Shown here piece after piece: positions 694 to 27,627 of a stretch of DNA of 27,995 nt. Location of the stretch: positions 1-27,995 of the IMG/VR virus record IMGVR_UViG_3300042467_001217. The stretch is one strand, 5' to 3'. The stretch is from a virus. Position 1 is the first letter of the stretch, and each line of letters begins with the position of its first letter. The translations under genes and the position numbers were made by a program. The notes below the pieces were generated by a model. That model was not told the DNA's origin, did not search any database, and was given only the letters and a program-made list of their open reading frames with translations.

Positions 694-694
694 T

Positions 695-2222: not shown

Positions 2223-2231
2223 GAGTTATGA

Positions 2232-9134: not shown

Positions 9135-9226
9135 TGGCGGAAGGTAAGGGATTTGAACCCTTGGTACCTCTAGCGAAGTACGACGGTTTAGCAAACCGCT
9201 GCTTTCGACCGCTCAGCCAACCTTCC
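9135..9226 (-). tRNA. tRNA-Ser (GCT)
   Basis: 92 nt with encoded CCA. Acceptor GGAAGGT/ACCTTCC, anticodon loop TTGCTAA, a long class II variable arm, T-loop TTCAAAT, discriminator G. Decodes AGC/AGU. Its first base overlaps the stop codon of the L,D-transpeptidase gene. Confidence 0.97.
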
Positions 9227-9657
9227 TAATCTTGAATATAAATCGTAGTATTATCTGCGCCATAGTCCTTAACAAGTCGGAAAAGCCAACGAGCGTTTCT
9301 CGGATGCAAACGAATACAACCATGAGAAGCAGGACGACCCAACTTATTTATGGCGTCTGTTGCATGGATAGCATATCCTCCATGGAAGAAAATAGAGTGA
9401 GGCATTGGGGCATTGTTGTACTTGCTGGAGTAGTGCATCTTGGTAAGATAATATGGCTGATAGATGCCACGAGGCGTAGAGAAACCCTTACGACCTGTAG
9501 AAACATCCCACTCAAAATAATCGGTTGGAGTCTCCACATACATTGTTTGTTCTGAGATATCTACTACGATTGTTACCTCTTCAGCCTTTGCTCCAGTAAC
9601 AAGCATAAAGATCGCTGCAATTACAATAGAAACATAAACAAAAAACTTGGCCATCAT
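9226..9657 (-). CDS. Secreted L,D-transpeptidase (YkuD domain)
   Basis: 143 aa. A signal peptide is clear: short basic start, hydrophobic VYVSIVIAAIFMLV, then AKA before a likely cut at 25/26. The mature part is a minimal YkuD domain with IHAT (His98) and the active-site motif SHGCIRL (111-117; His112, catalytic Cys114, Arg116). These enzymes make 3-3 peptidoglycan cross-links or attach proteins to the wall, in the periplasm. Phage copies are unusual. It has its own consensus promoter, and AAGGA precedes two tandem ATGs. Its stop codon shares one base with tRNA-Ser. Confidence 0.9.
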   Translation of the reverse strand: MMAKFFVYVSIVIAAIFMLVTGAKAEEVTIVVDISEQTMYVETPTDYFEWDVSTGRKGFSTPRGIYQPYYLTKMHYSSKYNNAPMPHSIFFHGGYAIHATDAINKLGRPASHGCIRLHPRNARWLFRLVKDYGADNTTIYIQD

Positions 9658-9686
9658 ATATCCTTTGTTATCTCTTCAACTATTAT

Positions 9687-9715
9687 ATTATAGCTTATTT
9701 GATATTAAAAGTCAA
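9687..9715 (-). promoter_or_regulatory. Sigma70-type promoter for the L,D-transpeptidase gene
   Basis: On the minus strand TTGACT (9715-9710), 17-bp spacer, TATAAT (9692-9687). The start is predicted near 9680, giving a leader of about 23 nt. It fills the gap between tRNA-Leu(CAA) and the gene. tRNA-Ser and the oxygenase downstream may be on the same transcript. Confidence 0.82.
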
Positions 9716-9716
9716 A

Positions 9717-9793
9717 TGGTGCCTGAGGTGGGACTCGAACCCACAACACTCGGTTTTTGAGACCGATGCGTCTACCGATTGCGCCACTCAGGC
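9717..9793 (-). tRNA. tRNA-Leu (CAA) without a long variable arm
   Basis: 77 nt with CCA. Acceptor GCCTGAG/CTCAGGC, D-arm of the Leu type (TGGCGCAATCGGTAGACGC), anticodon loop CTCAAAA, T-stem GTGGG/CCCAC, discriminator A. The variable region is only GTGTT (5 nt), whereas Leu tRNAs normally carry 10 or more. Confidence 0.9.
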
Positions 9794-9794
9794 A

Positions 9795-9870
9795 TGGTGC
9801 TGCCAGAGAGATTCGAACTCCCGACCTGATGATTACTAATCAACTGCTCTACCAACTGAGCTATGGCAGC
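9795..9870 (-). tRNA. tRNA-Thr (AGT)
   Basis: 76 nt with CCA. Acceptor GCTGCCA/TGGCAGC, anticodon loop TTAGTAA, variable AGGTC, T-loop TTCGAAT. The body resembles bacterial Thr tRNA. A T-T mismatch sits at 28-42. A34 in a bacterial Thr tRNA is rare. One base separates it from tRNA-Leu(CAA). Confidence 0.88.
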
Positions 9871-10018
9871 TTCTAAAGTATTCTAACATCTCTTCAAATG
9901 TTTTTGGACCTAATGGTTTCCAATTAAGACCAAAGCATTCTTCACAACCTGCACAACATTTGGGAGAACCACAGGGTTTCTTAGTGCACTTTCCATAAAA
10001 GTATTCCCAATATGTCAT
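9836..10018 (-). CDS. Cys-rich small protein overlapping tRNA-Thr
   Basis: 60 aa. Six cysteines (11, 16, 21, 22, 25, 28) in CTKKPCGSPKCCAGCEEC suggest a small metal-binding knot. AGGAA lies 7 nt before the ATG, supporting translation. The last 35 nt run into the tRNA-Thr gene, and the TAG stop is read from its anticodon loop, so the C-terminal residues (SSVGRAVD) are tRNA sequence read as protein. Not recognised. A shorter ancestral gene whose stop was lost is one explanation. Confidence 0.6.
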   Translation of the reverse strand: MTYWEYFYGKCTKKPCGSPKCCAGCEECFGLNWKPLGPKTFEEMLEYFRSCHSSVGRAVD

Positions 10019-10032
10019 AACAAGTTCCTAAA

Positions 10033-10116
10033 TGGTGCGGATGGAGGGACTTGAACCCCCACTCCTTCCAGAACTGGTTTCTAAGACCAGCGCGGCTACC
10101 GTTACGCCACATCCGC
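10033..10116 (-). tRNA. tRNA-Leu (TAG)
   Basis: 84 nt with CCA. Acceptor GCGGATG/CATCCGC, anticodon stem CTGGT/ACCAG with loop CTTAGAA, a 13-nt variable region, discriminator A. Decodes CUA and likely other CUN codons. Confidence 0.95.
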
Positions 10117-10121
10117 ATTAT

Positions 10122-10196
10122 TGGTAGCCGATGAGAGATTCGAACTCCCGACAGCCTCGGTGTAAACGAGATACTCTACCGCTGAGTTAATCGGCC
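10122..10196 (-). tRNA. tRNA-Val (TAC)
   Basis: 75 nt with CCA. Acceptor GGCCGAT/ATCGGCT (G-U at 1-72), anticodon loop TTTACAC, T-loop TTCGAAT, discriminator A. Confidence 0.95.
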
Positions 10197-10202
10197 ATAA
10201 AT

Positions 10203-10276
10203 TGGAGCGGGTAGCGGGAATCGAACCCGCGCACTCTCCTTGGCAAGGAGAAAGGCTACCATTACATCATACCAGC
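10203..10276 (-). tRNA. tRNA-Gly (GCC)
   Basis: 74 nt with CCA. Anticodon loop TTGCCAA on stem TCTCC/GGAGA, discriminator T as in bacterial Gly tRNA. The acceptor GCTGGTA/TACCCGC has one T-C mismatch at 3-70. Confidence 0.93.
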
Positions 10277-10284
10277 ATTTTATT

Positions 10285-10659
10285 CTATTTAGTTCTAGAA
10301 ACTCTATGGTCTTCTACCATTTTATATAGGAAACGATGATCATAAATTTCAAGATCAGCGTCGCATTCTTTCATATCCCATACGATATCCCAAACATCTT
10401 TGGCGTTCATATCGTGTCCGTTTTCAATCGCGTTATTATAGCTTTCAACAACTCGATTGTATATTACCTTCTTGTCGTACTCTGTCATTTCCTCAAAGTT
10501 GTGACAGCCGCAATACTTACAACCAACGTTACTCATTTCTTCGTAAGTATCAAAGTGACGATAGTAAGCATGAGAACACTTACAGATACGATCATCACCG
10601 TAACTTGGGTTGTATACCCATTCGACTTTCATAATTTTAAGATATGGTTCATCACTCAT
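10285..10659 (-). CDS. Small zinc-binding protein (Cys/His cluster)
   Basis: 124 aa. The segment ICKCSHAYYRHF (Cys26, Cys28, His30, His35) and GCKYCGC (Cys47, Cys50, Cys52) forms a likely zinc site. The rest is acidic and helical (WDIVWDMKECDAD). I recall similar CxCxH...GCxxCxC modules in phage proteins of unknown function. An AGGATAA site precedes the ATG. It lies between tRNA-Gly and tRNA-Met and is probably co-transcribed with them. No enzymatic function can be assigned. Confidence 0.7.
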   Translation of the reverse strand: MSDEPYLKIMKVEWVYNPSYGDDRICKCSHAYYRHFDTYEEMSNVGCKYCGCHNFEEMTEYDKKVIYNRVVESYNNAIENGHDMNAKDVWDIVWDMKECDADLEIYDHRFLYKMVEDHRVSRTK

Positions 10660-10676
10660 TTCATTATCCTATAAAT

Positions 10677-10752
10677 TGGTGCGTCATGGTAGAATCGAAC
10701 TACCTTTTCCGGCTTATGAGACCAGCGAGATGCCCATCACCTCCCAAGACGC
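10677..10752 (-). tRNA. tRNA-Met (CAT), elongator type
   Basis: 76 nt with CCA. Acceptor GCGTCTT/ATGACGC with G1-C72 and a T-T mismatch at 6-67. Anticodon loop CTCATAA. The paired 1-72 argues against an initiator. A lysidine-modified Ile tRNA cannot be excluded from sequence. Confidence 0.9.
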
Positions 10753-10753
10753 A

Positions 10754-10939
10754 TTATAGTTTCTTCTCAATCTTTTTCCAAAGACGATCATATTCTTCAT
10801 TGAGTTTCAAGAATTTCCAGAGAGTATCATCATACTCTGGATAACGCCACTGTCCGAGAACAGGTTTCTTGTTCCTCATCTTTTCAACAAGAACATCAAT
10901 TCTCTGAGCTACGGCAGTTACTTTAGCGAACTCTTTCAT
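10754..10939 (-). CDS. Small basic hypothetical protein
   Basis: 61 aa, not recognised. Amphipathic helices (FAKVTAVAQRIDVLVEKM and LNEEYDRLWKKIEKKL) flank a Pro/Trp/Tyr-rich turn (LGQWRYPEYDD). The ATG has an AGAGAG site. The gene exactly fills the space between tRNA-Phe and tRNA-Met, ending 2 bp from the latter. Net basic charge would suit nucleic-acid binding, but nothing specific supports that. Confidence 0.55.
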   Translation of the reverse strand: MKEFAKVTAVAQRIDVLVEKMRNKKPVLGQWRYPEYDDTLWKFLKLNEEYDRLWKKIEKKL

Positions 10940-10953
10940 CTTTACTCTCTAAA

Positions 10954-11029
10954 TGGTGCAACCTCTCTGGATCGAACAGAGTTCTTCCGCTCTTCAGGCG
11001 GACGTGAGCACCAGCTTCACCAAGGTTGC
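10954..11029 (-). tRNA. tRNA-Phe (GAA)
   Basis: 76 nt with CCA. Acceptor GCAACCT/AGGTTGC, anticodon stem TCCGC/GCGGA with loop CTGAAGA, T-loop TTCGATC, discriminator A. Confidence 0.95.
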
Positions 11030-11035
11030 TTTAAT

Positions 11036-11533
11036 TTAAAATTCTAAGGAAGAAAGAACTATCTTCCCATTTTCTCTTTCTTGATTTCCTAACCTAATAT
11101 GTTTTTCTTTATGAAACTCATCATAAAATATATCGTTCATGATAAGAACATCATATTCGATAGTATCGAGGTACTTTTCATCACCAAGAATTATTTCATA
11201 GAAAATTTGATTGAGGTTCATCGTGTAAACAGCACCATCATAACCTCTTTCTCTGTTCTCTATACCTATTACATTAAAATTGTTTTTTGTTAAAAGTAAT
11301 GGTATAAGTCCTGTGCCAGTACCAAGATCAACTATCTTTTTATTACGATAAAGATCCGGATCAGAAATAATGTCTAAGGCTATCTTAGGGTTTGCATAAT
11401 GAGGATCAGGAAACCGATCATAACCGTATATGTGTTTCCCACTAGCATATCCTGGGATATTAATCCCCTCTATGACCAAATGAACTCTTTCTGACCAAAT
11501 CTTTTCGTTATCTGCGTTTAGATAAGACTTCAT
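11036..11533 (-). CDS. Class I SAM-dependent methyltransferase-like protein
   Basis: 165 aa. KKIVDLGTGTGLIPLLL is a clear motif I of Rossmann methyltransferases, followed by the acidic end of strand 2 (VIGIENRE) and a YDVLIMND strand-4 motif. It resembles small PrmA/L11-type or CheR-like domains and is short, so it may be a minimal catalytic core. The substrate is unknown. AGGT precedes the ATG. It sits between tRNA-Phe and the aberrant tRNA-Arg, and a tRNA-modifying role is a loose inference from location only. Confidence 0.75.
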   Translation of the reverse strand: MKSYLNADNEKIWSERVHLVIEGINIPGYASGKHIYGYDRFPDPHYANPKIALDIISDPDLYRNKKIVDLGTGTGLIPLLLTKNNFNVIGIENRERGYDGAVYTMNLNQIFYEIILGDEKYLDTIEYDVLIMNDIFYDEFHKEKHIRLGNQERENGKIVLSSLEF

Positions 11534-11548
11534 ATTGAGAACCTAAAA

Positions 11549-11642
11549 TGGAGCACCCGACAGGATTCGAACCTGCATCAGCCATCGCTGGCCACTTCCA
11601 GTTACCTTACTCTTGGTTCGTAGCCAAGGTGGATACGGATGC
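11549..11642 (-). tRNA. Aberrant tRNA-Arg (ACG): no D-arm, 35-nt variable region
   Basis: 94 nt with CCA. The 5' end GCATCCGTA and the anticodon arm CTTGG-CTACGAA-CCAAG closely follow E. coli tRNA-Arg(ACG). The acceptor pairs with CGGGTGC and the T-arm is GCAGG-TTCGAAT-CCTGT. Only 7 nt (TATCCAC) lie between acceptor and anticodon stem, so there is no room for a D-arm. Between anticodon stem and T-arm are 35 nt containing GCCA-GCGA-TGGC, a tetraloop hairpin, and a GTGG that could pair with CCAC of the 7-nt linker. The discriminator is T. Whether it is charged is unknown. Confidence 0.7.
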
Positions 11643-11647
11643 ATAAT

Positions 11648-11723
11648 TGGAGTAACTGGCCAGATTCGAACTGGCACCTCAAGGATTTGCAGTCCCGCGC
11701 ATTAACCGTTTTGCTACAGTCAC
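11648..11723 (-). tRNA. tRNA-Cys (GCA)
   Basis: 76 nt with CCA. Acceptor GTGACTG/CAGTTAC, anticodon loop CTGCAAA, discriminator T as in bacterial Cys tRNA. The anticodon stem CGGGA/TCCTT has a C-T mismatch at its base. Confidence 0.93.
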
Positions 11724-11728
11724 AATTT

Positions 11729-11802
11729 TGGCGATCCTAACGGGACTCGAACCCGCCTTTCCGGATAGACAGTCCGGAGCCTTCCCTGACGGCAATAGGA
11801 CC
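11729..11802 (-). tRNA. tRNA-Asp (GTC)
   Basis: 74 nt with CCA. Acceptor GGTCCTA/TAGGATC, anticodon stem CCGGA/TCCGG with loop CTGTCTA, T-loop TTCGAGT, discriminator G. Confidence 0.96.
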
Positions 11803-11804
11803 AA

Positions 11805-11881
11805 TGGATGCGTGGGGTAGGATTCGAACCTACGACCTTCTGCTTATGAGACAGACGAGCTGACCACTGCTCCACCCCGCA
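11805..11881 (-). tRNA. Initiator-like tRNA-Met (CAT) with acceptor bulge
   Basis: 77 nt with CCA. The body TGCGGGGTGGAGCAG...AGCTCGTC closely follows bacterial tRNA-fMet. Anticodon loop CTCATAA. Position 1 is T opposite A72, and the 3' acceptor strand CCC-A-CGCA has an extra A bulged between two paired blocks. The three G-C pairs of initiator anticodon stems are absent (TCTGT/GCAGA). Confidence 0.85.
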
Positions 11882-11908
11882 ACATTATTTTTGTAATATA
11901 CTATATCT

Positions 11909-12505
11909 TTAGATATTAATCAAGTCTTTTGTTGTCTTAGTAAAGAACCAACAAGTAGAAGGCGTGACACCAACCTTCTCATGAGAACAATGATCCTTGA
12001 TCGCTTTAACGATTCCAGGATATGGATCGGCGAAGTCATGACCTGCGAACAATCCACCAACCTTAACCTTTGGATGCCAAGCTAGGAGATCCTTACGGAA
12101 GGACTCGTAGTCGTGAGAAGCATCGATAAACACAAAGTCAAGAGACTCATCTTCATACAGAGCAGCAGACTCGGCGCTGTCTCCCTTGATGCCCTTGACC
12201 ATTCCTGGACGTTCCTGCTCAACAGGCTTCATGTTATTTGTAAAAACCTCGAACAAACGACCAGCCTGATTGTCGCGATCGTGCATCTGTCCAGGTTCAA
12301 TAGGCGAACCAGTGAAGTTGTCAATACAATCGAGCGTGATTTCCTTACCGCTATTGATAATCTCAACAGCGAGGAACGAAGAACTTTGACCCTTCCAAGG
12401 ACCAACCTCTACAAACTTGCCCTTCTGGGGAGCATTAGCTACCGCATAAGCATAAATGTCTGCGAAGTTAAACCAGCCTTCAACCTTTTGAAAATAATGT
12501 TCCAT
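11909..12505 (-). CDS. Class I methyltransferase (Methyltransf_24-like)
   Basis: 198 aa. GKFVEVGPWKGQSSSFLA is the motif I region in its E-x-G-x-x-x-G form, then LDCIDNF (strand 2 acid) and DFVFIDASHDYESFRKDL with the metal-site-like DASH motif, and a closing GGLFAGHDF. This is the pattern of the Methyltransf_24 / cephalosporin-hydroxylase-like group often found in sugar-modification clusters. A possible substrate is a sugar hydroxyl, but no target can be read. GGAGG precedes the ATG. It shares a tight cassette with the oxygenase gene upstream (11-bp gap). Confidence 0.8.
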   Translation of the reverse strand: MEHYFQKVEGWFNFADIYAYAVANAPQKGKFVEVGPWKGQSSSFLAVEIINSGKEITLDCIDNFTGSPIEPGQMHDRDNQAGRLFEVFTNNMKPVEQERPGMVKGIKGDSAESAALYEDESLDFVFIDASHDYESFRKDLLAWHPKVKVGGLFAGHDFADPYPGIVKAIKDHCSHEKVGVTPSTCWFFTKTTKDLINI

Positions 12506-12516
12506 AGTTCCTCCAA

Positions 12517-13188
12517 TTAATCAGTATCAATAACAAGATCGCCAGAAAGCGAGACTCTATAACCATCAGAAGTATAGAATGGGTTTACAGAGTGACCAAG
12601 CTTGGCTGGGAACAAACAAATAATTCCTTCATACTCATTATCAACTGGGAACGGGAAGCTACGGGTTTGTCCGAGAATGTCAGTGTAATAGGCTACAAAA
12701 TTACCAGCTATAGGCAGCGTAGACTCTGGATACAGAGCTCGCTCGTCGGCAGCGTGATAAGGAACCTTGGCCCAAAGAGCGAACGAATAAACACCACCAT
12801 GGATATGGTGCGGATGGAATTCATTCTTTGCCTGGAAGTTTACCCAGATATCCTTGAACTTAAACTTAGTAACCTTTGAGGCAACTTCTGTTACGTTACG
12901 AATATGATGCGGCTGGGACATCTGATCATGAGCCTGTGCTAGACCAACAATATACTCAAGCATTACAGGAATCAGTTCTTCACTAAGGTCAAACTCCTTG
13001 GCGATGTTCGCTGTCAGCTTATAGTTTGCCTTCTTACCTTCCTTAAAGTCTGTGTCCATAAGCTTTTGGACAACCTTGTTAACAGGGTCCATAATTTCCT
13101 TTGGAACTCTTTGAAATAAGACACCTGAGTTTGGGAAAGTGAAGAATAATCCTTGGCCTTCTTCGAGCCTTGTAATCTGATCCGCCAT
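12517..13188 (-). CDS. 2OG-Fe(II) oxygenase-like protein
   Basis: 223 aa from the ATG with AGAGGT 6 nt upstream; an ATG 15 nt earlier lacks a ribosome site. The core region NEFHPHHIHGGVYSFALW has the His cluster and the SGVYxL-like strand of phage 2OG-FeII_Oxy_5-type oxygenases. LGHSVNPFYTSDGYRVSLSGDL supplies a distal His and the Arg/Ser 2-oxoglutarate motif. Such enzymes are common in T4-like phages with unknown targets. The neighbouring methyltransferase suggests a two-step modification cassette, an inference from order only. Confidence 0.8.
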   Translation of the reverse strand: MADQITRLEEGQGLFFTFPNSGVLFQRVPKEIMDPVNKVVQKLMDTDFKEGKKANYKLTANIAKEFDLSEELIPVMLEYIVGLAQAHDQMSQPHHIRNVTEVASKVTKFKFKDIWVNFQAKNEFHPHHIHGGVYSFALWAKVPYHAADERALYPESTLPIAGNFVAYYTDILGQTRSFPFPVDNEYEGIICLFPAKLGHSVNPFYTSDGYRVSLSGDLVIDTD

Positions 13189-13252
13189 AATAATACCTCT
13201 CATTTAAGCATAAAGTAAACCACTTGTCTACACAAGTATTTAGTAGTGGAAT

Positions 13253-13341
13253 TGGCGGAAGGCTGGCAGAATCGAACTCCATACCGGTCAAGGTACCACT
13301 CGTTTTCAAGACGAGGTTGCTCCCAGAGCAATTAACCTTCC
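13253..13341 (-). tRNA. tRNA-Ser (TGA) with T-stem bulge
   Basis: 89 nt with CCA. Acceptor GGAAGGT/GCCTTCC, anticodon stem CTCGT/ACGAG with loop CTTGAAA, long class II variable arm, discriminator G. The T-stem TGGAG pairs with CT(G)CCA only if one G is bulged. Confidence 0.92.
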
Positions 13342-13346
13342 ATTAT

Positions 13347-13423
13347 TGGCTCCCGTAGTAGGATTCGAACCTACCGCATAGTGATTAACAGTCACTCCTC
13401 TCCACCTAGGACAGTTCACGGGA
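13347..13423 (-). tRNA. tRNA-Asn (GTT)
   Basis: 77 nt with CCA. Acceptor TCCCGTG/TACGGGA, anticodon stem AGTGA/TCACT with loop CTGTTAA, discriminator G. First tRNA downstream of the promoter at 13481. Confidence 0.95.
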
Positions 13424-13480
13424 ATAAACTCGATGCGATTTCTTATAGTGGTTACGCCCTCCACTCTTCGTAGTATAGCT

Positions 13481-13509
13481 AGTATACCTAGATCTATTTA
13501 TAAAGTCAA
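13481..13509 (-). promoter_or_regulatory. Promoter for the second half of the tRNA array, with an embedded late-promoter motif
   Basis: Minus strand TTGACT (13509-13504), 17-bp spacer, TATACT (13486-13481), start predicted near 13474. Inside the spacer is TATAAATA (13502-13495), identical to the T4 late-promoter box. It lies at the 3' edge of the 77-aa gene, and about 50 nt of leader separate it from tRNA-Asn. Confidence 0.75.
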
Positions 13510-13731
13510 GGACTTAATTTGATTCCAACGCCAGATTAAACGCCATCTTAACCAAAACTTCTCGCGTCTATACAAGACAAAAAGATTCCTCCACCAGAGA
13601 GGGAAGGCGTAATCTTTAAATCTTCCAGTGTAAAAAGGATTATGAATAGCAAGGTACAAAGATCTAATTTTTCTTCTATGTCCTTTTGGCCATTCAGGAA
13701 TAGCTTCCCAGTTTTTATTCATGTTATTCAT
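13498..13731 (-). CDS. Small basic Trp/Arg-rich protein
   Basis: 77 aa, not recognised. It is strongly basic and aromatic (WPKGHRRKIRSLY, FWLRWRLIWRWNQIK). The FPLWWRNLFVLYRREKFWLRWRLIW stretch (split here as FPLWWRNLFVLY then RREKFWLRWRLIW) could be membrane-surface or nucleic-acid binding. AAGGA lies 7 nt before the ATG. The last codons overlap the promoter for the downstream tRNAs. It lies between tRNA-Gln(CTG) and tRNA-Asn. Confidence 0.6.
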   Translation of the reverse strand: MNNMNKNWEAIPEWPKGHRRKIRSLYLAIHNPFYTGRFKDYAFPLWWRNLFVLYRREKFWLRWRLIWRWNQIKSLTL

Positions 13732-13745
13732 AACAAATCCTTAAT

Positions 13746-13819
13746 TGGCTGCCCTTCGTGGATTCGAACCACAATTGCTGGAGTCAGAGGCCAGAGTCCT
13801 GCCGTTAGACGAAAGGGCA
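13746..13819 (-). tRNA. tRNA-Gln (CTG)
   Basis: 74 nt with CCA. Acceptor TGCCCTT/AAGGGCA, anticodon CTG in a CTCTGAC loop above stem CTGG/CCAG with a C-T top mismatch, T-loop TTCGAAT, discriminator G as in bacterial Gln tRNA. Confidence 0.92.
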
Positions 13820-13828
13820 ATAATAAAT

Positions 13829-13902
13829 TGGTCCCTGATGGTAGAATCGAACTACCGTAACTGGCTCCACAAACCAGCGTTCTACCATTGAACTAAACAG
13901 GG
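13829..13902 (-). tRNA. tRNA-His (GTG), alphaproteobacterial type
   Basis: 74 nt with CCA. Anticodon stem CTGGT/GCCAG with loop TTGTGGA. Acceptor CCCTGTT/ATCAGGG has a T-T mismatch at 6-67. The base before +1 is A, so there is no encoded G-1, and position 73 is A rather than C. It follows tRNA-Glu after one base. Confidence 0.94.
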
Positions 13903-13903
13903 T

Positions 13904-13978
13904 TGGCAGCGCATAAGGGAATTGAACCCTTCTCCCCGGATTGAAAGCCCAGTATTCTAACCACTAAACTAATGCGCC
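13904..13978 (-). tRNA. tRNA-Glu (TTC)
   Basis: 75 nt with CCA. Acceptor GGCGCAT/ATGCGCT, anticodon loop CTTTCAA, T-arm AAGGG-TTCAATT-CCCTT, discriminator G. Confidence 0.95.
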
Positions 13979-13983
13979 ATAAT

Positions 13984-14066
13984 TGGAGGACTGGGTGGGA
14001 CTCGAACCCACGATGTTGTATAGCAGATTAAAAGTCTGCGCCGTTCGCCACTACGGTAACCAGTCC
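13984..14066 (-). tRNA. tRNA-Lys (TTT) with Tyr-like body
   Basis: 83 nt with CCA. Acceptor GGACTGG/CCAGTCC, anticodon stem GCAGA/TCTGC with loop CTTTTAA. The 11-nt variable region, the CCG/CGG D-stem and the anticodon stem resemble bacterial tRNA-Tyr more than tRNA-Lys. Discriminator T instead of A. Confidence 0.85.
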
Positions 14067-14259
14067 GTATACTTTGTAGTGCGGCTACTTCTATAGACTA
14101 TAAGCTATTACAACAACAATTACTGCCGCCCTTATTCATTACCCAGTAAACTGGCAGTCTATATCGGACGGTATCCCGCTGGAGGGACTCAGTATATAAC
14201 AGGATCCGCTTGGTTTTCTATCATGCAAGAAAGTTAATTGCTGCAAGGATCCTTAAACT
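14067..14259 (-). other. Structured gap without a gene
   Basis: 193 bp with no ORF of note and no canonical T-arm. Inverted repeats are frequent: CCAGT-AA-ACTGG (14143-14154), ACTGCC/GGCAGT (14122-14158), TCCC/GGGA (14174-14187), and AGGATCC-GC-TTG against CAAGGATCCT (14201-14212 and 14244-14253). It may be a small structured RNA or decayed tRNA sequence. A 13-codon Cys-rich ORF within it lacks a convincing ribosome site. Confidence 0.4.
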
Positions 14260-14333
14260 TGGCTGGAAGACTAGGGATCGAACCTAGATTCGTGGTTTCA
14301 AAGACCACCGTCCTACCGTTAGACGATCTTCCA
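14260..14333 (-). tRNA. tRNA-Gln (TTG)
   Basis: 74 nt with CCA. Acceptor TGGAAGA/TCTTCCA, anticodon stem GTGGT/ACCAC with loop CTTTGAA, T-loop TTCGATC, discriminator G. Confidence 0.95.
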
Positions 14334-14339
14334 ATAAAC

Positions 14340-14405
14340 TGGTTCCAGCGACGGATTCGAACCGTACTTTGGTAGTGTGCACCTACCGCCCCAGGCTATG
14401 CTAGA
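14340..14405 (-). tRNA. Miniature tRNA-Cys-like (GCA), 66 nt
   Basis: 66 nt with CCA. Anticodon arm GGTAG-GTGCACA-CTACC is perfect, and the T-loop is TTCGAAT. The D-arm is reduced to GCC-TGG-GGC (3-bp stem, 3-nt loop) and the variable region to 4 nt. The acceptor TCTAGCA/CGCTGGA has an A-C mismatch at 7-66, and the T-stem has a T-C mismatch at 49-65. A normal tRNA-Cys(GCA) exists at 11648. Confidence 0.65.
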
Positions 14406-14447
14406 AATAAACTAAATACTCCGTCAACTCATAATATGGAGTATACT

Positions 14448-14732
14448 ATGGAAACTTATATAAGTCAAGTCATTTATTTACCCTTTTCTTGGGACACAAC
14501 ACAAACTATGCCGTGCCGTGGGCAAATTTTAGACATTCATCATTACCAAGCTTTGTTCTCTCTATTGGGAACTCGCTTTGGCGGCGATGGACAAAGAACA
14601 TTCGCATTACCTGATCTAAGACCTTGGAACGATGTAGGACCAGATTATGGTCATCGCACTCGTCGCGAATGGCACGAAGATGAGTTGGTCGCTCATATGG
14701 TAATGAACGGGGTTTATCCTTCACACGGATAA
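14448..14732 (+). CDS. Short tail-collar (MDL-like) domain protein
   Basis: 94 aa from the ATG with GGAG 6 nt upstream; an ATG 12 nt earlier has no site. The pattern IYLPFSWDTTQTMPCRGQIL, HYQALFSLLGTRFGGDGQ and TFALPDLRPW is the Phage_Tail_Collar domain, in which the single domain makes up almost the whole protein. Longer relatives continue into a tail or fibre region. It is the only plus-strand gene in about 12 kb and lies inside the minus-strand tRNA array, between the mini tRNA-Cys and tRNA-Ile. Possible upstream late box CTAAATAC at 14413-14420 (weak). Confidence 0.8.
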   Translation: METYISQVIYLPFSWDTTQTMPCRGQILDIHHYQALFSLLGTRFGGDGQRTFALPDLRPWNDVGPDYGHRTRREWHEDELVAHMVMNGVYPSHG

Positions 14733-14733
14733 T

Positions 14734-14808
14734 TGGTTGGCACAGAAGGTAACGATCCTTCCACCCCTGTCTTATCAGGACAGTGCTCTACCTCTGAGCT
14801 ATGCGCCA
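14734..14808 (-). tRNA. tRNA-Ile (GAT) with unusual T-loop
   Basis: 75 nt with CCA. Acceptor TGGCGCA/TGTGCCA, anticodon stem CTGTC/GACAG with loop CTGATAA, discriminator A. The T-arm is GAAGG-ATCGTTA-CCTTC: position 54 is A and 58 is T, the reverse of the near-universal T54/A58 pair. Confidence 0.9.
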
Positions 14809-14933
14809 ATGATTCGTTACACCTTACAGGTTTAGCCCTTTCGCGAACAGAGTCAGCAATCCTGTATTCGTAAGCTTTCCCTCATGTTGGGCTTACTAGG
14901 TCTCCCCTGTCTTATCTAGAAAAACGGGTAATT
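14809..14933 (-). other. Gap with tRNA-Ile remnant and hairpins
   Basis: 125 bp without a gene. The 13-bp CCCCTGTCTTATC at 14904-14916 duplicates the anticodon-side part of tRNA-Ile at 14764-14776, suggesting a decayed or copied tRNA piece. GTAAGC/GCTTAC (14870-14875 and 14891-14896) can form a stem. Confidence 0.45.
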
Positions 14934-15019
14934 TGGTGGGTGAGAAAGGATTCGAACCTTCTAAGTCATAGACAACGGATTTACAGTCCGCCGCAACACG
15001 CCGTCGTTGCCGCTCACCC
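14934..15019 (-). tRNA. tRNA-Tyr (GTA)
   Basis: 86 nt with CCA. Acceptor GGGTGAG/CTCACCC, anticodon stem GCGGA/TCCGT with loop CTGTAAA, a 13-nt class II variable region, discriminator A. It follows the S4-domain gene on the same strand after 9 bp. Confidence 0.96.
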
Positions 15020-15028
15020 GAACAAGTA

Positions 15029-15205
15029 TTATTCTTTTTCTGGCCACTGAACTATTAAGTTTGGGTCAGTAACCTTTACATCATTAATACGAATGCCACC
15101 CTGTTCAATCAATCGTCTAGCTGCACTCTTGCTTTTTGCAAATCCAGCAGCAATGACTATTTCGACTAACGAAACAGTTCTTGGTACAGTTATTTCAGGT
15201 AACAT
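15029..15205 (-). CDS. S4 RNA-binding microprotein resembling the TyrRS C-terminal domain
   Basis: 58 aa, MLPEITVPRT to VQWPEKE. The core LVEIVIAAGFAKSKSAARR then LIEQGGIRINDVKVTD is an S4 domain with the alpha-L RNA-binding pattern (AGxAxSKSxARRLIxQGGVxxN) found at the C-terminus of bacterial tyrosyl-tRNA synthetases, where it grips the tRNA-Tyr variable arm. No catalytic domain is attached. AGGAG lies 6 nt before the ATG. It is transcribed just ahead of tRNA-Tyr. Other stand-alone S4 proteins (RNA-binding heat-shock types) are alternatives. Confidence 0.8.
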   Translation of the reverse strand: MLPEITVPRTVSLVEIVIAAGFAKSKSAARRLIEQGGIRINDVKVTDPNLIVQWPEKE

Positions 15206-15216
15206 TGTATTCTCCT

Positions 15217-15249
15217 AAAAAGCGCCAACCTCACAGTTATTCGGCTGGC
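15217..15249 (-). terminator. Attenuator-like hairpin before the S4 gene
   Basis: RNA stem GCCAGCC/GGTTGGC (7 bp, one G-U; 15249-15243 and 15230-15224), then GC and TTTTT, immediately before the AGGAG of the S4 gene. It has the form of an intrinsic terminator. Upstream CTGAC/GTCAG and TGATGCGCGTCA can form other folds. Regulation is inference. Confidence 0.5.
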
Positions 15250-15296
15250 TGTCTGACATTCATGACGCGCATCACTGCTACGTAGTCAGATCAAAT

Positions 15297-15370
15297 TGGT
15301 GCCGCATGAGAGAATCGAACTCCCATCAGAGGATTACAAAGCCCCTGTACTGCCATTGTACTAATGCGGC
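15297..15370 (-). tRNA. tRNA-Thr (TGT)
   Basis: 74 nt with CCA. Acceptor GCCGCAT/ATGCGGC, anticodon loop TTTGTAA above GGGG/CCTC with a C-T top mismatch, discriminator A. Confidence 0.93.
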
Positions 15371-15375
15371 ATTAA

Positions 15376-15450
15376 TGGTGGACCTGTGGAGAATCGAACT
15401 CCATTCATCCCGGTGCAAGCGGGATATAATACCCATTATACTACAAGCCC
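15376..15450 (-). tRNA. tRNA-Ala (TGC)
   Basis: 75 nt with CCA. Acceptor GGGCTTG/CAGGTCC with two G-U pairs (3-70 and 5-68), anticodon stem TCCCG/CGGGA with loop CTTGCAC, T-loop TTCGATT, discriminator A. The Ala identity pair G3-U70 is present. Confidence 0.95.
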
Positions 15451-15457
15451 AATAATT

Positions 15458-15532
15458 TGGCGAAGGTCCTAGGAATCGAACCTAGTTCTCAAGGTTTTGG
15501 AGACCTGCGGATTGCCATCTTCCTCGACCAAC
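15458..15532 (-). tRNA. tRNA-Trp (CCA) with mismatched acceptor
   Basis: 75 nt with CCA. Anticodon loop CTCCAAA on stem CAGGT/ACCTT, D-arm GGA-AGATGGCAA-TCC, T-arm CTAGG-TTCGATT-CCTAG, discriminator G. Acceptor GTTGGTC/GACCTTC has two adjacent T-T mismatches at 2-71 and 3-70. Confidence 0.88.
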
Positions 15533-15541
15533 GCACTTAAA

Positions 15542-15579
15542 TGGAGCGGAGCGAATCACTCATACAAGTTTCTACTCCA
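15542..15579 (-). other. Small inverted-repeat segment, possible tRNA remnant
   Basis: TGGAG and CTCCA bound 38 bp, with an inner GAG-TGATTCG-CTC that looks like a shrunken T-arm and CCA at the RNA 3' end. It has no anticodon arm. Probably a decayed tRNA end. Confidence 0.3.
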
Positions 15580-15587
15580 CATAAATT

Positions 15588-15676
15588 GCTGGCGCGTTTT
15601 TATAGAGGTGTCAGCCCGTCCTCTACTGGTACGCACAAGAGACAGAGTGCACCTACCATCTCTATAGTAGTCCAGC
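15588..15676 (-). ncRNA. Candidate structured RNA of about 89 nt
   Basis: Closed by GCTGG/CCAGC (15676-15672 and 15592-15588), with an inner TATAGAG/CTCTATA helix (15666-15660 and 15607-15601) and an arm GGTA-GGT-GCAC...GTGC-G-TACC. It has no T-loop or CCA, so it is not a normal tRNA. It lies between tRNA-Pro and tRNA-Trp in the same transcript. Function unknown. Confidence 0.45.
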
Positions 15677-15684
15677 GATTAAAT

Positions 15685-15761
15685 TGGTCGGAGTAGTAGG
15701 ATTCGAACCCACGACCCTCTGCTCCCAAAGCAGATGCGCTACCAGACTGCGCTATACTCCG
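15685..15761 (-). tRNA. tRNA-Pro (TGG)
   Basis: 77 nt with CCA. Acceptor CGGAGTA/TACTCCG, anticodon stem TCTGC/GCAGA with loop TTTGGGA, discriminator A. Confidence 0.96.
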
Positions 15762-15766
15762 TTAAT

Positions 15767-15841
15767 TGGAGGACCACCGGGAAGTCGAATCCCGACCTGA
15801 AGGATTAAGAGTCCTTTGCACTACCATTATGCTAGTGGTCC
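15767..15841 (-). tRNA. tRNA-Lys (CTT)
   Basis: 75 nt with CCA. Acceptor GGACCAC/GTGGTCC, anticodon stem AAGGA/TCCTT with loop CTCTTAA, T-loop TTCGACT. Discriminator T, as in the other Lys tRNA here, instead of the usual A. Confidence 0.94.
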
Positions 15842-15844
15842 AAT

Positions 15845-15965
15845 GTTATCACTTCAGAAACCCACCAACGGATTCGAACCGTCCATCTTGAACGCCACAA
15901 GGCGCGACTGTGTCCACCACAAAGGCAGTAGCTACAATGCCTCGGTGGGTTTCTGAAGAGATAAC
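15845..15965 (-). ncRNA. tRNA-like element closed by a 22-bp stem
   Basis: The arms 15845-15866 and 15944-15965 are complementary over 22 bp with one A-A mismatch. The top 7 bp (ACCCACC/GGTGGGT) act as an acceptor for a tRNA-like core: D-arm GGCA/TGCC, a hairpin with loop GTGGA, a variable hairpin CGCC-TTGT-GGCG, and T-arm GACGG-TTCGAAT-CCGTT. No CCA is encoded, the D-loop lacks GG, and the anticodon is ambiguous. It is the first element after the array promoter. Confidence 0.65.
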
Positions 15966-16103: not shown

Positions 16104-16373
16104 TTATTCGACGAGACCTGCGGCAAGAGCCTTGTATCCTGCAGCAATTAGTTTACGTGATGGTGTACCAAAGCGATACTTCTGAGTCACGCGACCCTTT
16201 GAATCTGTATGTTGATTCAAGTAAATCGGGTAGCCTTCCATACGGAGAGTATAGACAGTATTATAAGGATTGGCTACATTATAGCGAGCAGAGATCTGCT
16301 TGGCTGTGAGTTCCTCACCCTTTAGAACAAGGGCTTCGTAAACTCGATCAGTAGCTGTAGAAGTCATATTCAT
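16104..16373 (-). CDS. Winged-helix DNA-binding protein
   Basis: 89 aa from the ATG with GGAG 6 nt upstream; an ATG 12 nt earlier lacks a site and is close to the predicted transcript start. EELTAKQISARYNVANPYN is a helix-turn-helix, and RMEGYPIYLNQHTDSKGRV forms the wing. The family is familiar from T4-like and cyanophages. It is monocistronic, with its own promoter and strong terminator, between the tRNA array and the replication block. A transcription regulator of phage genes is the natural guess, but targets are unknown. Confidence 0.8.
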   Translation of the reverse strand: MNMTSTATDRVYEALVLKGEELTAKQISARYNVANPYNTVYTLRMEGYPIYLNQHTDSKGRVTQKYRFGTPSRKLIAAGYKALAAGLVE

Positions 16374-16402
16374 TCGTTTCTCCATTTCAACATTATTTAG
16401 TC

Positions 16403-17213: not shown

Positions 17214-17238
17214 ACATTTAATCTCCTATCGTAGGAGT

Positions 17239-20042: not shown

Positions 20043-20068
20043 CAAAAGTAGGGGAGCCGAAGCTCCCC
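20043..20068 (-). terminator. Intrinsic terminator after the clamp gene
   Basis: Minus-strand GGGGAGC-TTCG-GCTCCCC (7-bp stem, stable UUCG loop) followed by TACTTTTG, 8 bp past the clamp stop. Genes 44-62-regA downstream would then need read-through, which could set clamp above loader levels. Confidence 0.8.
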
Positions 20069-20075
20069 AATTCAT

Positions 20076-20729
20076 TTAGAATGTTGAGCTTTGCTCAACC
20101 GCGATCCAGTATTCAACTTCCTTACCAGAGAAGTGAGAGATACCACGAGAACTGATAGTTACCTCATAATCTCCAGGGATAATCTTAATGTTTTCGGACT
20201 TAAAGATAGCTCTGAAAGTCTTATCAGTATCGCCGATATTGATAGAATAAATGTTTCCTGTCACATTCTTAGTGTCAGCTGCCTGAAGGAAAACATTGCG
20301 TCCATCGCCAAAGACTACAATTTCAGGAAGTGAAAGAACACCAGCAGCCTTCTCAACATCCCTCAAATGTTCATTGGTCAAAGTAAAACTGACATCAACT
20401 GATGGAAGATTGATCTCCTTATCAGGAGCCTTTGTGATAGTGCTTTCTTCAGCATAGGTATACTGAGACTTCTTGTTTCCGTCAAAGATCTCAACCGACT
20501 TGTCGCCAAACCTCAACTCAGGATCGTTGAAAAGGCTCACAGTTGAAATGAACTGGTCAAGGTCATAGATAGCAAACTTCTTGCTGAAGTCAGTGTCAAC
20601 CTTACCCTTTGCCATGATTGTCTTTGAAGGAGAAATGGTCTTCAAAACATTTCCTTCTTGTACAACAATTGATGGGTTAATCTTTGCGAAGTTCTTAAGA
20701 ACATTCAGCGTATTAGTCGAAATCTTCAT
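20076..20729 (-). CDS. 45: DNA polymerase sliding clamp (gp45-like)
   Basis: 217 aa against 228 in T4. The start is the ATG with GGAG 6 nt upstream, giving MKISTNTLNVLKNFAKINPSI (N-terminus similar to T4 MKLSKDTTALLKNFATI); upstream ATGs lack a site. The protein forms a trimeric ring that tethers the polymerase and, in T4, also activates late transcription. AIYDLDQFISTVSLFND and the C-terminal YWIAVEQSSTF follow the T4 pattern. A possible promoter -10 TATAGT (20765-20770) lies upstream with a poor -35. Confidence 0.93.
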   Translation of the reverse strand: MKISTNTLNVLKNFAKINPSIVVQEGNVLKTISPSKTIMAKGKVDTDFSKKFAIYDLDQFISTVSLFNDPELRFGDKSVEIFDGNKKSQYTYAEESTITKAPDKEINLPSVDVSFTLTNEHLRDVEKAAGVLSLPEIVVFGDGRNVFLQAADTKNVTGNIYSINIGDTDKTFRAIFKSENIKIIPGDYEVTISSRGISHFSGKEVEYWIAVEQSSTF

Positions 20730-20788
20730 ATTATTCTCCATAATGTTTATCACAATAAAATCATACTATAAAAGCTATTAAATAGCAA

Positions 20789-24246: not shown

Positions 24247-25166
24247 ATTGCTTCTAAAAATCTGCGCTGTTTACCAAGAACATTCAGACCGAGCTTTTCA
24301 GCCGTTTCATTGTCTAGATTACGATCAGTTCTTTCATACTTGGTCTTTTCCCAACCCATGTACAATTCGTGATCATATGTAAATGGAGGGAACTTGTAAT
24401 CATAAGAAAAAAGGATTTCCTGCACATCAGGTCCGTTGTTAAGCGCAGCATCCATAAAGGCAGTGGCGAAACGGAAGCTGTCTTCAATTTCGCGGCGATC
24501 AATAGAGCTACGGAAACAACGAAACTCTACAGTCTTTGAGTTCTTCAAAGCATAGGTATGAATACCATAGCGGAAAGGACGAGATTGAATTTTAGCATCC
24601 TTACCACAACAATGAACACGAAGCCAATCTTCAAAGTCAACAGGAACAGTTGCAAGATTTTCAAGCAACCAATTAGGGGCAATACGACCACCATCATGCT
24701 TCAAATAAGTCTTTGCAGTCTTTGTCTGTGTCATATTAGGATAGACTCTAAACTGATAAACACGATCCATAGTGATGTGCTGATTTTCCTTGATGTAACG
24801 CATCAAACGCTTTAGAGCGTCAATATCTTCAATCAAACCTGGAACGTGAATATGAAGATGACCGTGATTAACACAACCAGCAGTAGGAGAAGTTCCATGC
24901 GCATCAAATAGCTCCTTAACCTTCATGATGTTATCAACTTGATGCTGCCAAGTCTTTGTAGGTTTCATATTAATTTCGCCGCCGACTGGCGGATTAATTC
25001 CTTTCGGGTCTGAACCAAGACCACGATAAGGTTCTCTTTCATTAATAATATCTGTTTCGCAATATTCCCAAGAACCAAGTTCTTCAGGAATTTGCATCTT
25101 GCGATCTATATCGCCCCACTCGATTTCGAAACCATAGGTAAATGTATTTGGGTGATAATACTTCAT
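24243..25166 (-). CDS. Amidoligase (GS-like COOH-NH2 ligase)
   Basis: 307 aa. The glutamine-synthetase-fold amidoligase signature is clear: TYGFEIEWGD (10-19) with the metal-binding Glu pair, GGEINMK (62-68), HGHLHIH (101-107) and KTVEFRCFRSS (211-221). These enzymes form an amide between a carboxyl and an amine using ATP. In phages they occur with class II glutamine amidotransferases, and the next gene upstream is one. Together they could attach an amino acid or make an amide on a modified base or metabolite. The 4-nt ATGA overlap with the amidotransferase argues for a complex. Confidence 0.85.
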   Translation of the reverse strand: MKYYHPNTFTYGFEIEWGDIDRKMQIPEELGSWEYCETDIINEREPYRGLGSDPKGINPPVGGEINMKPTKTWQHQVDNIMKVKELFDAHGTSPTAGCVNHGHLHIHVPGLIEDIDALKRLMRYIKENQHITMDRVYQFRVYPNMTQTKTAKTYLKHDGGRIAPNWLLENLATVPVDFEDWLRVHCCGKDAKIQSRPFRYGIHTYALKNSKTVEFRCFRSSIDRREIEDSFRFATAFMDAALNNGPDVQEILFSYDYKFPPFTYDHELYMGWEKTKYERTDRNLDNETAEKLGLNVLGKQRRFLEAI

Positions 25167-25864
25167 TGTAAATCCTCAATATTGAATGTTTCTTTAAGCC
25201 ACTTATCATCAGCCACTTCAAAATGACTGAGCTTAAAGTTATTTACATTATAAATTTCGAACATTCTAGTTTTTTCTGAACTAGGGATACCGCTGCGCTT
25301 TAAAATGTCTTTTGTAGATGCAAAGATCGTTACACGATCATCAGAATAATAGTATAGCGGTCTTTCATGATTTCGGAAAGCTGTTAATCTTTTATCGGCA
25401 AACAGCGCACAGACCGCCATACTAGCTGGGTGAAACACAGCTAGTGGATTTTCGTCTTTTTCCATTGCTCGCAGAACAAGCTCGGAGTCGTTTGCTGTTT
25501 CTGTTTCATAGCCAAATAGCTGACGCCATGTGCTAGGAGGTTCTTGGGATATGACTCCGTTATGCACAACGCCCAACTCATCAGTTGCAAAAGGCTGATT
25601 GTAACGTAGGTCAGAAGTGCTATAGCGAATGTGACCAATACAATAGAGATTACCATCTTCGTTTCTCCAAGTTTCTAAGTTTTGTTTTTGTATAAACTTA
25701 TCAGCCGGAATTGGTTCTTTAATTGTGTGAACTTTACCATTCTTTACATAAGAAACACCAGTAGCATGCTTGCCACGAATCATTGACTGTTGAAAAAGAC
25801 TACGGATAATTCCGTAGTCTCTCTCGTTAAAATCAGCAATTGTTATGCCAAGGACTCCACACAT
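25163..25864 (-). CDS. Class II glutamine amidotransferase
   Basis: 233 aa. The start MCGVLG puts the N-terminal nucleophile at Cys2. GKHATGVSY, IGHIRYSTSD and VVHNGVIS followed by NDSELVLRAM are the conserved glutaminase pocket (Arg, Asn, Gly, Asp) of GATase II enzymes such as GlmS, PurF and AsnB. No synthetase domain is attached, so ammonia would be delivered to the amidoligase partner. It starts at the TET-like stop (1-nt overlap) and is coupled to the amidoligase. Similar stand-alone pairs are known from phage and bacterial modification operons. Confidence 0.88.
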   Translation of the reverse strand: MCGVLGITIADFNERDYGIIRSLFQQSMIRGKHATGVSYVKNGKVHTIKEPIPADKFIQKQNLETWRNEDGNLYCIGHIRYSTSDLRYNQPFATDELGVVHNGVISQEPPSTWRQLFGYETETANDSELVLRAMEKDENPLAVFHPASMAVCALFADKRLTAFRNHERPLYYYSDDRVTIFASTKDILKRSGIPSSEKTRMFEIYNVNNFKLSHFEVADDKWLKETFNIEDLQ

Positions 25865-27168
25865 TAAAAGAATGCATCCAAGCTCGCTGCTGCTTCCTTT
25901 GCGTATGGATCTGTAATGTTGTGCTTCTTCATATAATCAAACCACTCTTGATCATCCCACATTCCGGGAGAAACACCATTCCATAATGGTCTTTGTAACT
26001 TGTGATCCTTATTAAGGCGGCGCTCCTCAACAAACTGTTTACGAAGCATCTCGTAATCCCAAGATTTCAATTCAACCATCTTTTCACGGAAATAACAAAC
26101 AAGTGTCAACCGATCATTATCGTCACCAATAAGAGCGTCATTACCATGAATACCACCATGGTTGTTAACGAGCAACATATCTCCAGGTAGAAGATTGATA
26201 CCTATACGATATTCAGGGAGAATAAACTCAGCACCTTTCCAACCCTTACCTTCAGGACCAGTGATGCCACAGATGTTAGAAAACCCTTCATGCAAATCAC
26301 CAGCGTCTCGGTGACAAGCTGTACGCCAGTTATGATTAACTGTCAGTGTTGTGAAAACTGTCTCATCAACAAGGAATCTCGTGTCAAGCTTGTCAGCTTC
26401 GCGGCGCTGATTGCCCCAGCGAATAGGTAAAAGTTCTCTAAACTGGTCATTTAACTTACGAAGATAAGGGAAAGCAAGCTTAAACTTTTCTGGATTTTTT
26501 TCATTATAAGAACAAACACGACCATGAGGGATGCGGGGATATCTGTCAAAATATCCAGCAATGCCAGACATTACAGATTGAGCATAATTAGTATCAGAAA
26601 TATAATTATTGATTACGTAATTAGCTTCTTTGATTTGTTCTTCACGAGAAAGATTATGAGTGCCAGTAAGCCACTTTTCAAACCAACCGTGGTACTCAGG
26701 ATACTTTTTTGTAACTGCAGAACGTAACCAAACCTGACCACGAGTTTCTTCTTTTGAGCCCTTCTTATGGCTTTCACGAATTGATTCGATAGTTGTGCCA
26801 TCATCAAATGTATTAGTAGGTCTTGCCAAGAAAGAAAGAATCTCAAGGTGTTCAGCAGTCACCCAATCGCGGTTGCCACGACCTTCCTGACCTAACTGAT
26901 CGCCACGTGGACCAGCCGCCATGCCACGATTTTGCGACTCAGTTGCAGCATCTCTAAGACCAGCATACGCCATGTCCATTTCTTCTTTGGTAAATACGTT
27001 CTTCCTGAACTTAAAAATGATATTCTCTTCAGAAAGTTTACCATCAATAGATTCAGCATAAAGATCACAATCTTCAGTTATGATCCTATCCGTATAATCT
27101 TTACAAGTAATAAAAGAACCAAGAGTTTCTTCTGAACTAATCTTCTTTCTTACAAGAACCTCAACCAT
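25864..27168 (-). CDS. TET/JBP-family 2OG-Fe(II) DNA-base dioxygenase
   Basis: 434 aa. The C-terminal catalytic core carries TVNHNWRTACHRDAGD with iron ligands His286 and Asp288, then GAEFILPEYRIGINLLPGDML, distal His341 in GGIHGN, and Arg353 in DRLTLVCYFR for 2-oxoglutarate. This order matches TET/JBP enzymes, which hydroxylate the methyl of 5-methylcytosine or thymine in DNA. Phage TETs are known to start cytosine hypermodification; JBP acts on thymine. Which base applies here is not visible. The helical 200-residue N-terminus is a likely DNA-binding part. It leads the modification operon. Confidence 0.85.
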   Translation of the reverse strand: MVEVLVRKKISSEETLGSFITCKDYTDRIITEDCDLYAESIDGKLSEENIIFKFRKNVFTKEEMDMAYAGLRDAATESQNRGMAAGPRGDQLGQEGRGNRDWVTAEHLEILSFLARPTNTFDDGTTIESIRESHKKGSKEETRGQVWLRSAVTKKYPEYHGWFEKWLTGTHNLSREEQIKEANYVINNYISDTNYAQSVMSGIAGYFDRYPRIPHGRVCSYNEKNPEKFKLAFPYLRKLNDQFRELLPIRWGNQRREADKLDTRFLVDETVFTTLTVNHNWRTACHRDAGDLHEGFSNICGITGPEGKGWKGAEFILPEYRIGINLLPGDMLLVNNHGGIHGNDALIGDDNDRLTLVCYFREKMVELKSWDYEMLRKQFVEERRLNKDHKLQRPLWNGVSPGMWDDQEWFDYMKKHNITDPYAKEAAASLDAFF

Positions 27169-27199
27169 TTACTTCTCCATGTTTGTATATGTACGATAC

Positions 27200-27215
27200 T
27201 TCGTATATATACGAA
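27200..27215 (-). promoter_or_regulatory. Palindromic operator-like site at the TET promoter
   Basis: TTCGTATATATACGAA is a perfect 16-bp palindrome directly downstream of the -10 box, covering the predicted start (about 27208). It is a good place for a repressor dimer. No protein is assigned. Confidence 0.5.
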
Positions 27216-27243
27216 TCATAATTCAAAATTGAATTAATGTCAA
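27215..27243 (-). promoter_or_regulatory. Promoter of the modification operon
   Basis: Minus strand TTGACA (27243-27238), 17-bp spacer, TATGAT (27220-27215). It precedes the TET-like gene by about 47 nt. Confidence 0.82.
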
Positions 27244-27246
27244 GCA

Positions 27247-27627
27247 TTAGCTATACTTTTTAAGAATACCTTCTATGTCAGCAGGTTGCCAACCTTCGGG
27301 CTTCTTAATTTTTCCATCTTCGCGACGGATGACCTTACCATCAACGAGCTTGTTCATGTTCGCTGAATGAATCGCATTGAATACTTCATCAAGAGGAATG
27401 CCGTAAGAAACAGCAGTACCGCAAGCGATGTAGATAATATCGGCAAGCTCAACAGCAAGATTAGTAATATCGCTATTATCTTCTGCCTTGTTATACTCGT
27501 TGAACTCTTCCTTCATTAATCTCATGCGAAGTTCGCGTTCTTCATAAGAAGGAAGCTCTGGCTTCTCGCCAACACGCTGCCCAAACGCTGCATGGAAATC
27601 ACGAACTTTTTCAAACATAGTTGCCAT
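27247..27627 (-). CDS. MazG-like nucleotide pyrophosphohydrolase
   Basis: 126 aa. MKEEFNEYNKAE and VELADIIYIACGTAV give the EExxE...E(L)xD metal motif of all-alpha NTP-PPases of the PRA-PH/MazG superfamily, the size of single-domain phage MazG proteins. They hydrolyse NTPs or dNTPs. A house-cleaning or pool-shaping job fits a phage with modified bases, but substrate preference is unknown. It ends just before the -35 of the TET promoter and is preceded by the small gene at 27629. Confidence 0.8.
   Translation of the reverse strand: MATMFEKVRDFHAAFGQRVGEKPELPSYEERELRMRLMKEEFNEYNKAEDNSDITNLAVELADIIYIACGTAVSYGIPLDEVFNAIHSANMNKLVDGKVIRREDGKIKKPEGWQPADIEGILKKYS

Follow-up and report, generated by a model that had tools for sequence, protein, structure and literature searches.

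A conserved directional word on the core promoter of phage TET operons, of which a perfect palindrome is one form

What is a perfect 16-bp palindrome doing at the very start of a phage operon headed by a TET/JBP dioxygenase gene, and could a repressor use it to hold this operon off? The window in which we have examined this question is the entire record IMGVR_UViG_3300042467_001217 (27,995 nucleotides). The palindrome (TTCGTATATATACGAA) had been claimed at 27200-27215 by an earlier note and was confirmed exactly. It is the longest perfect palindrome within the window and adjoins the -10 box of the TET promoter. This promoter (minus strand, 27243-27215) is made up of a -35 box TTGACA (27238-27243) and, after 17 bp, a -10 box TATGAT (27215-27220), matching the consensus at 11 of 12 positions. 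Its last base is the first of the palindrome on the minus strand, the only base that palindrome and -10 box have in common, and the centre of the palindrome falls therefore at about +1 (the start site is predicted). More copies had also been proposed as worth looking for; no other exact one exists in the window, and a mismatch search revealed a second imperfect copy at 27182-27197 (3 mismatches), in a register of 18 bp. A stretch similar to this second copy can be recognized by eye in the close relative L006.

The first gene of the operon (25864-27168, minus strand) encodes a protein whose Tet_JBP domain (Pfam PF12851) scores 54.4 bits over a cut-off of 34.9 and whose predicted fold matches those of TET2, CcTet and NgTET, so that domain and fold together identify it as a TET/JBP dioxygenase. 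It is followed on the same strand by a closely packed run of genes, namely a glutamine amidotransferase-like protein (25163-25864, with a 1-base overlap with TET), a protein that matches amidoligases weakly, a GNAT acetyltransferase, an amino acid:DNA transferase-like protein (PF18724, 22653-23645), a P-loop kinase, a DUF3310 protein, a phrog_1574 protein and, after a gap of 35 bp, a gp45-like sliding clamp (20076-20753). The clamp gene stands just before a hairpin (GGGGAGCTTCGGCTCCCC followed by TACTTTTG) at 20051-20068 on the minus strand that looks like a terminator by eye; its position was counted by hand and the terminator scan did not include this stretch. Upstream of the TET promoter lies the gene for a MazG-like/PRA-PH pyrophosphohydrolase (27247-27627, minus strand), and many relatives have a similar C-terminal coding stretch ahead of TET.

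Other regions of the window have features of their own. An inverted repeat (CTCCTACGATAGGAG) at 17223-17237 on the minus strand is located right behind a TTGACA-17-TATACT promoter and covers the ribosome-binding site of a gene that begins at 17213; it might act as an operator or as an RNA switch. The minus strand also carries 27 predicted tRNA genes in a single stretch (9135-15951), and the plus strand has a set of sugar-nucleotide and glycosyl transfer genes (340-4935; heptose kinase/adenylyltransferase-like, glycosyltransferase, GHMP kinase) that might supply the glycosylation of DNA or of the surface.

Symmetry by itself is weak evidence. After dinucleotide shuffling of the whole window, 87 of 200 sequences had a perfect palindrome of at least 16 bp (mean 0.53), that is, nearly half of them. 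When the 78-bp gap between mazG and TET was shuffled, a perfect 16-bp palindrome was obtained in 11 of 2000 cases. In a separate set of 100 shuffles, two matches to the palindrome at up to 3 mismatches were found in none. Of 31 promoters of the TTGAC type that come with a ribosome-binding site (from the window, G001 and G051), the one at TET carries the 16-bp dyad, and the perfect dyads near +1 of the remaining 30 span 2-10 bp. What is unusual about the palindrome is thus its place, not its existence, and its significance depends on conservation. Chance and shared ancestry acting on functionless AT-rich promoter DNA might account for it, and the shuffled windows point in this direction, as do the common ancestry of the sites described below and the distribution of the exact 16-mer, found in nine viral contigs of which only four are TET loci. 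The absence of such a dyad from the 30 other promoters speaks against this explanation, and the comparison with related phages, where the evidence is strong, makes it very improbable.

TET loci in viral contigs were gathered by searches with TET proteins and with an alignment (three of the five lists being limited to the best 80), and their upstream stretches display a recurrent word adjoining the -10 box. An 80% identity filter reduced the 235 TET upstreams among the matches listed to 88 non-redundant ones, and the word (TYGYATAYATAC) is present in 61 of these 88. The motif search itself was made over a smaller, earlier set of 61 non-redundant upstream stretches (the input being shortened; longer stretches yield the coding end of mazG). 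It returned T[CT]G[TC]ATA[TC]ATAC, whose log-likelihood ratio was 241, while 20 shuffled sets averaged 53 and did not exceed 62; this control refers to the 61-sequence set and not to the 88-sequence set. A statistic so far over the shuffles, obtained from upstream stretches less than 80% alike, argues against chance, and so does the retention of the word through the changes of position described below. We conclude that there is a real conserved promoter element here, well above chance, kept in dozens of distinct phage contigs. Such conservation over background among relatives is what one would look for in an operator.

In the window, the motif search over the TET relatives places the word at 27201-27214 on the minus strand (TCGTATATATACGA, centre at about +1). 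Its presence in relatives is connected to the room available between mazG and TET, measured by a rough reading-frame rule: it occurs in 54 of 61 upstreams with a gap of at least 35 bp and in 7 of 27 with a smaller one (five of the seven at 27-34 bp). Being common where there is room and rarer where there is not, the word thus accompanies a private TET promoter. It is absent from 27 of the 88 upstreams, seven of them with a gap of at least 35 bp, which counts against an operator.

The conserved element is not the palindrome as such. Perfect symmetry over 14 bp is found in only 5 of the 61 sites, and the paired positions of the dyad match no more often than permuted pairs, although a strict dimer operator might show covariation; dyad symmetry under selection, as would be expected of an operator, was not detected. 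The right arm retains a trace of the left, with C at position 12 in 53% of the sites. Given the few symmetric sites and arms without covariation, the conserved element is directional, and the perfect palindrome of the window is one of its forms, the tidiest. TYGYATAYATAC recurs among the relatives as a directional word, keeping in mind that the orientation counts lean forward because the profile was trained on the forward strand (one site, L031, scored higher reversed).

The left arm has a peculiar base pattern. At positions 2-4 the triplet is CGT in 19 sites, TGC in 17, TGT in two and CGC in one, other triplets being found in 22 of the 61. With G at position 3, there is a strong anticorrelation between positions 2 and 4 (Fisher p ~6e-8, ancestry ignored); the 80% identity filter leaves shared ancestry, so the Fisher value is too strong. 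Nearly all pyrimidine-G-pyrimidine left arms have therefore exactly one cytosine beside the central G, and 8 switches between CGT and TGC are needed on the TET tree. One far-fetched possibility suggested by this pattern is that the modification of the phage's own DNA is read by the operator: repressor binding could become weaker or stronger when the cytosine there is methylated or hypermodified, and the TET pathway could in this way shut its own operon once the genome had been modified.

The place of the word relative to the promoter boxes is variable. It could be placed in 59 of the 61 sites (L045 and L353 being the exceptions), 40 of them after the -10 box, 14 in the spacer between -35 and -10 (for example TTGACTTTTCCATATATACGTAGTATAAT in L104 and TTGACAAATCGTATACATACTAGTATACT in L043) and 5 over the -10 box; 15 of these 59 assignments were made by hand, and the site of L011, which overlaps the -35 box, is doubtful for that reason. 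All 59 placed sites lie on a core promoter as predicted (in some cases from a weak match) and overlap the region of RNA polymerase as an operator would. A quick tree of 57 TET proteins, with long branches for L044 and L390, implies 12 changes of position class, and its starred branches force at least 7 for class A. The word has thus been relocated repeatedly within the core promoter, even if the position classes cluster on the tree and the sites are consequently not independent. The word stays while the promoter boxes shift about it. The distance from the word to the ATG is steadier (sd 4.3) than that to the -10 box (sd 9.8, a value that rests on automatic promoter calls, some of them overruled by hand), as if the word were anchored to the gene and not to the promoter, which counts against the operator.

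A steady distance to the ATG would also suit a role in RNA, as a leader hairpin or a processing site of the mazG-TET message. The whole leader is predicted to fold at -15.6 kcal/mol (without shuffle control) and the hairpin of the 16-mer is weak, at -3.3 kcal/mol. This explanation seems improbable to us, since the 14 spacer sites are upstream of the predicted start of their own promoter, the arms do not covary, and the predicted start in the window splits the palindrome. With these 14 sites outside the predicted transcript, an RNA hairpin was rejected as the main explanation.

If the word were read by a regulator with many targets, it should recur along the genomes. In the 141-kb relative G001 (140 kb scanned), [TC][CG][GC][TC]ATA[TC]ATA matches at the TET promoter and once elsewhere, the TET match being both strands of a single near-palindrome. 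When 11 records were scanned with a profile, the TET site came out on top in the window, G001, G009 and G012 and in second place in G002 and G003; in G008 it was outside the six best, and in G010, G011, G013 and G014 no such site was seen at TET. The exact pattern TYGYATAYATA gave 17 rows in 24 long records, six of them at the TET promoters of five records, and 27 rows when written backwards; it misses many TET sites, and besides the five records that matched at TET, others of the 24 have a weaker form. The word is not enriched elsewhere in these long relatives, so there is no sign of a regulon, and a genome-wide phage regulon was rejected. The earlier note named a unique motif, together with the lack of any protein that binds it, as what would refute a regulatory role. 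The motif is unique within the window and not enriched in the long relatives, but it is conserved between phages, and its uniqueness is consequently no refutation. A possible second copy, reversed, was seen at ~7190 of G053, just past a TATAAT box upstream of another gene; among the seven homologues shown, four had a promoter recognizable by eye and none had the word.

The same scans bear on the participation of the host. A host regulator or a xenogeneic silencer, with nucleation on TpA-rich DNA of the H-NS type, might read the word and silence the operon, a possibility to be considered although we believe it unlikely. Silencers act across broad AT-rich DNA. Broad AT-rich targets would then be expected, yet the word is not enriched outside the TET promoter, and a purely harmful site should disappear, yet this one is retained. 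In favor of a host protein, the phage protein families do not track the word (best 25 rows, reading frames of G001 and G053). There is also some resemblance to the nucleation sites of H-NS and Ler, since the published high-affinity H-NS site TCGATATATT is near TCGTATATAT (PMC3219716). The phage word differs from these sites in being single and confined to one promoter, and the same paper reports that TpA steps within the AT tract weaken the binding of Ler and H-NS (PMC3219716), which again speaks against a silencer.

We have also looked at the exact 16-mer in bacterial and archaeal genomes, where there were 93 matches, of which 80 loci (L514-L593) were listed. Judging from their titles, 44 of these 80 belong to Methanoperedens-like archaea, and in 27 of the 44 the 16-mer comes after a AAACTATAAATA-like box, something seen in none of the other 36. 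The Methanoperedens-like copies are a promoter or mobile element repeated in these archaea and have probably nothing to do with the phage word. Inspected by eye, the other 36 listed loci (one of which, L532, is from Methanomassiliicoccus) do not indicate any bacterial regulator; nor do they have a context common to many bacteria, a further point against a host silencer. Shared contexts among them are those of near relatives (three Paenibacillus, two Syntrophomonadaceae and two Bacteroidetes).

Another known site with this appearance is the NrdR box. The NrdR consensus is a 16-bp palindrome with an alternating AT centre, and in this the TET site is alike. It is unlike in being single, or two copies 2 bp apart, and in its outer bases, which differ from the consensus. 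NrdR binds two boxes that are usually 15-16 bp apart (PMC12051234). The genes that follow the TET site (TET, amidotransferase, transferases, kinase and clamp) are not ribonucleotide reductase, and with the wrong target genes and a second copy 2 bp on instead of 15-16 bp, an NrdR box was rejected. Two viral contigs, L058 (7862-7909) and L062 (3111-3158), do have the 16-mer and a near copy 16 bp apart, which is the spacing of NrdR boxes, and the pair in L062 is close to genes that, by eye, resemble ThyX and ribonucleotide reductase.

The candidate repressor put forward by the earlier note was the phage's own winged-helix protein (16104-16385, minus strand). In this view, as we have weighed it, the protein would bind the palindrome as a dimer. 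A winged helix is indeed predicted, with weak structural matches that include PadR and MarR types, and all 10 of the long TET phage records searched have the protein, its gene lying in nine of them on the strand of TET and ~7-12 kb downstream of it (in a set of 40 mostly shorter records, many ending before its position, it was found in 16). However, it is equally present in records without the word at TET (G010, G011, G013 and G014), and its recognition region is near-identical between G053, which has the word, and G058 and G010, which do not; in this comparison the rows of G012, G014, G002 and G013 are out of register and that of G008 derives from a longer frame. The family reaches phage contigs of 331-367 kb, and its model has no structure match at E <=0.001. 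The gene is located beyond the terminator-like hairpin and has its own promoter, TTGATT-17-TATAAT (both recognized by eye), for which reason we rejected it as the last gene of the TET transcript. We regard this protein as a rather improbable and weakly supported repressor of the TET operon. Past the -10 region of its gene (16394-16401, minus strand) there is a CTAAATA, resembling a T4-type late promoter, that was seen by eye in 6 of 10 word-bearing and 0 of 7 word-less records.

Among the reading frames of G001 and G053, the only queries used, no protein family (best 25 rows) was present in all word-bearing and no word-less records, fragmentary records blurring absence in this analysis. The family that best tracked the word (7 of 10) looks like a spurious frame, and several other rows are probably spurious too.

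Taken with the weighing of alternatives above, we favor, with a probability of about 0.6 and on the basis of sequence comparison, an operator that is conserved and serves the TET operon alone; the palindrome would be one version of it, and a repressor bound there would block RNA polymerase. A sequence-specific DNA-binding protein would bind TYGYATAYATAC across the core promoter and compete with RNA polymerase of the sigma-70 type. A promoter that is otherwise good (TTGACA/TATAAT) could in this way be kept off, or be closed down at some point in the infection. Protein binding, repression and the timing of DNA modification as the purpose are what we infer from the element, and occlusion of RNA polymerase by a dedicated repressor would be the mechanism most consistent with its place. 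Classical repressor operators of the lac/LexA type overlap the -10/+1 region. Like them, the phage element is short, nearly palindromic and situated on an operon's core promoter, where it is found at several places; unlike them, its conserved part is asymmetric and no further targets were seen in the phage. The initial idea of a repressor controlling this operon survives, then, in that the conserved element overlaps the promoter start and is consistent with repression, but what is conserved is a directional word and not a palindrome.

The titles and beginnings of abstracts that were searched, a set that did not include the main study (Burke 2021), made no mention of the control of phage TET operons, and we make no claim that the TET promoter element is undescribed. 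If the proposed operator is real, it would regulate in cis a phage operon for TET hypermodification, one that includes a replication clamp gene. A 14-bp word and one promoter would then provide a handle for finding the protein that times DNA modification in infection, and would allow one to test whether the modification feeds back on its own expression.
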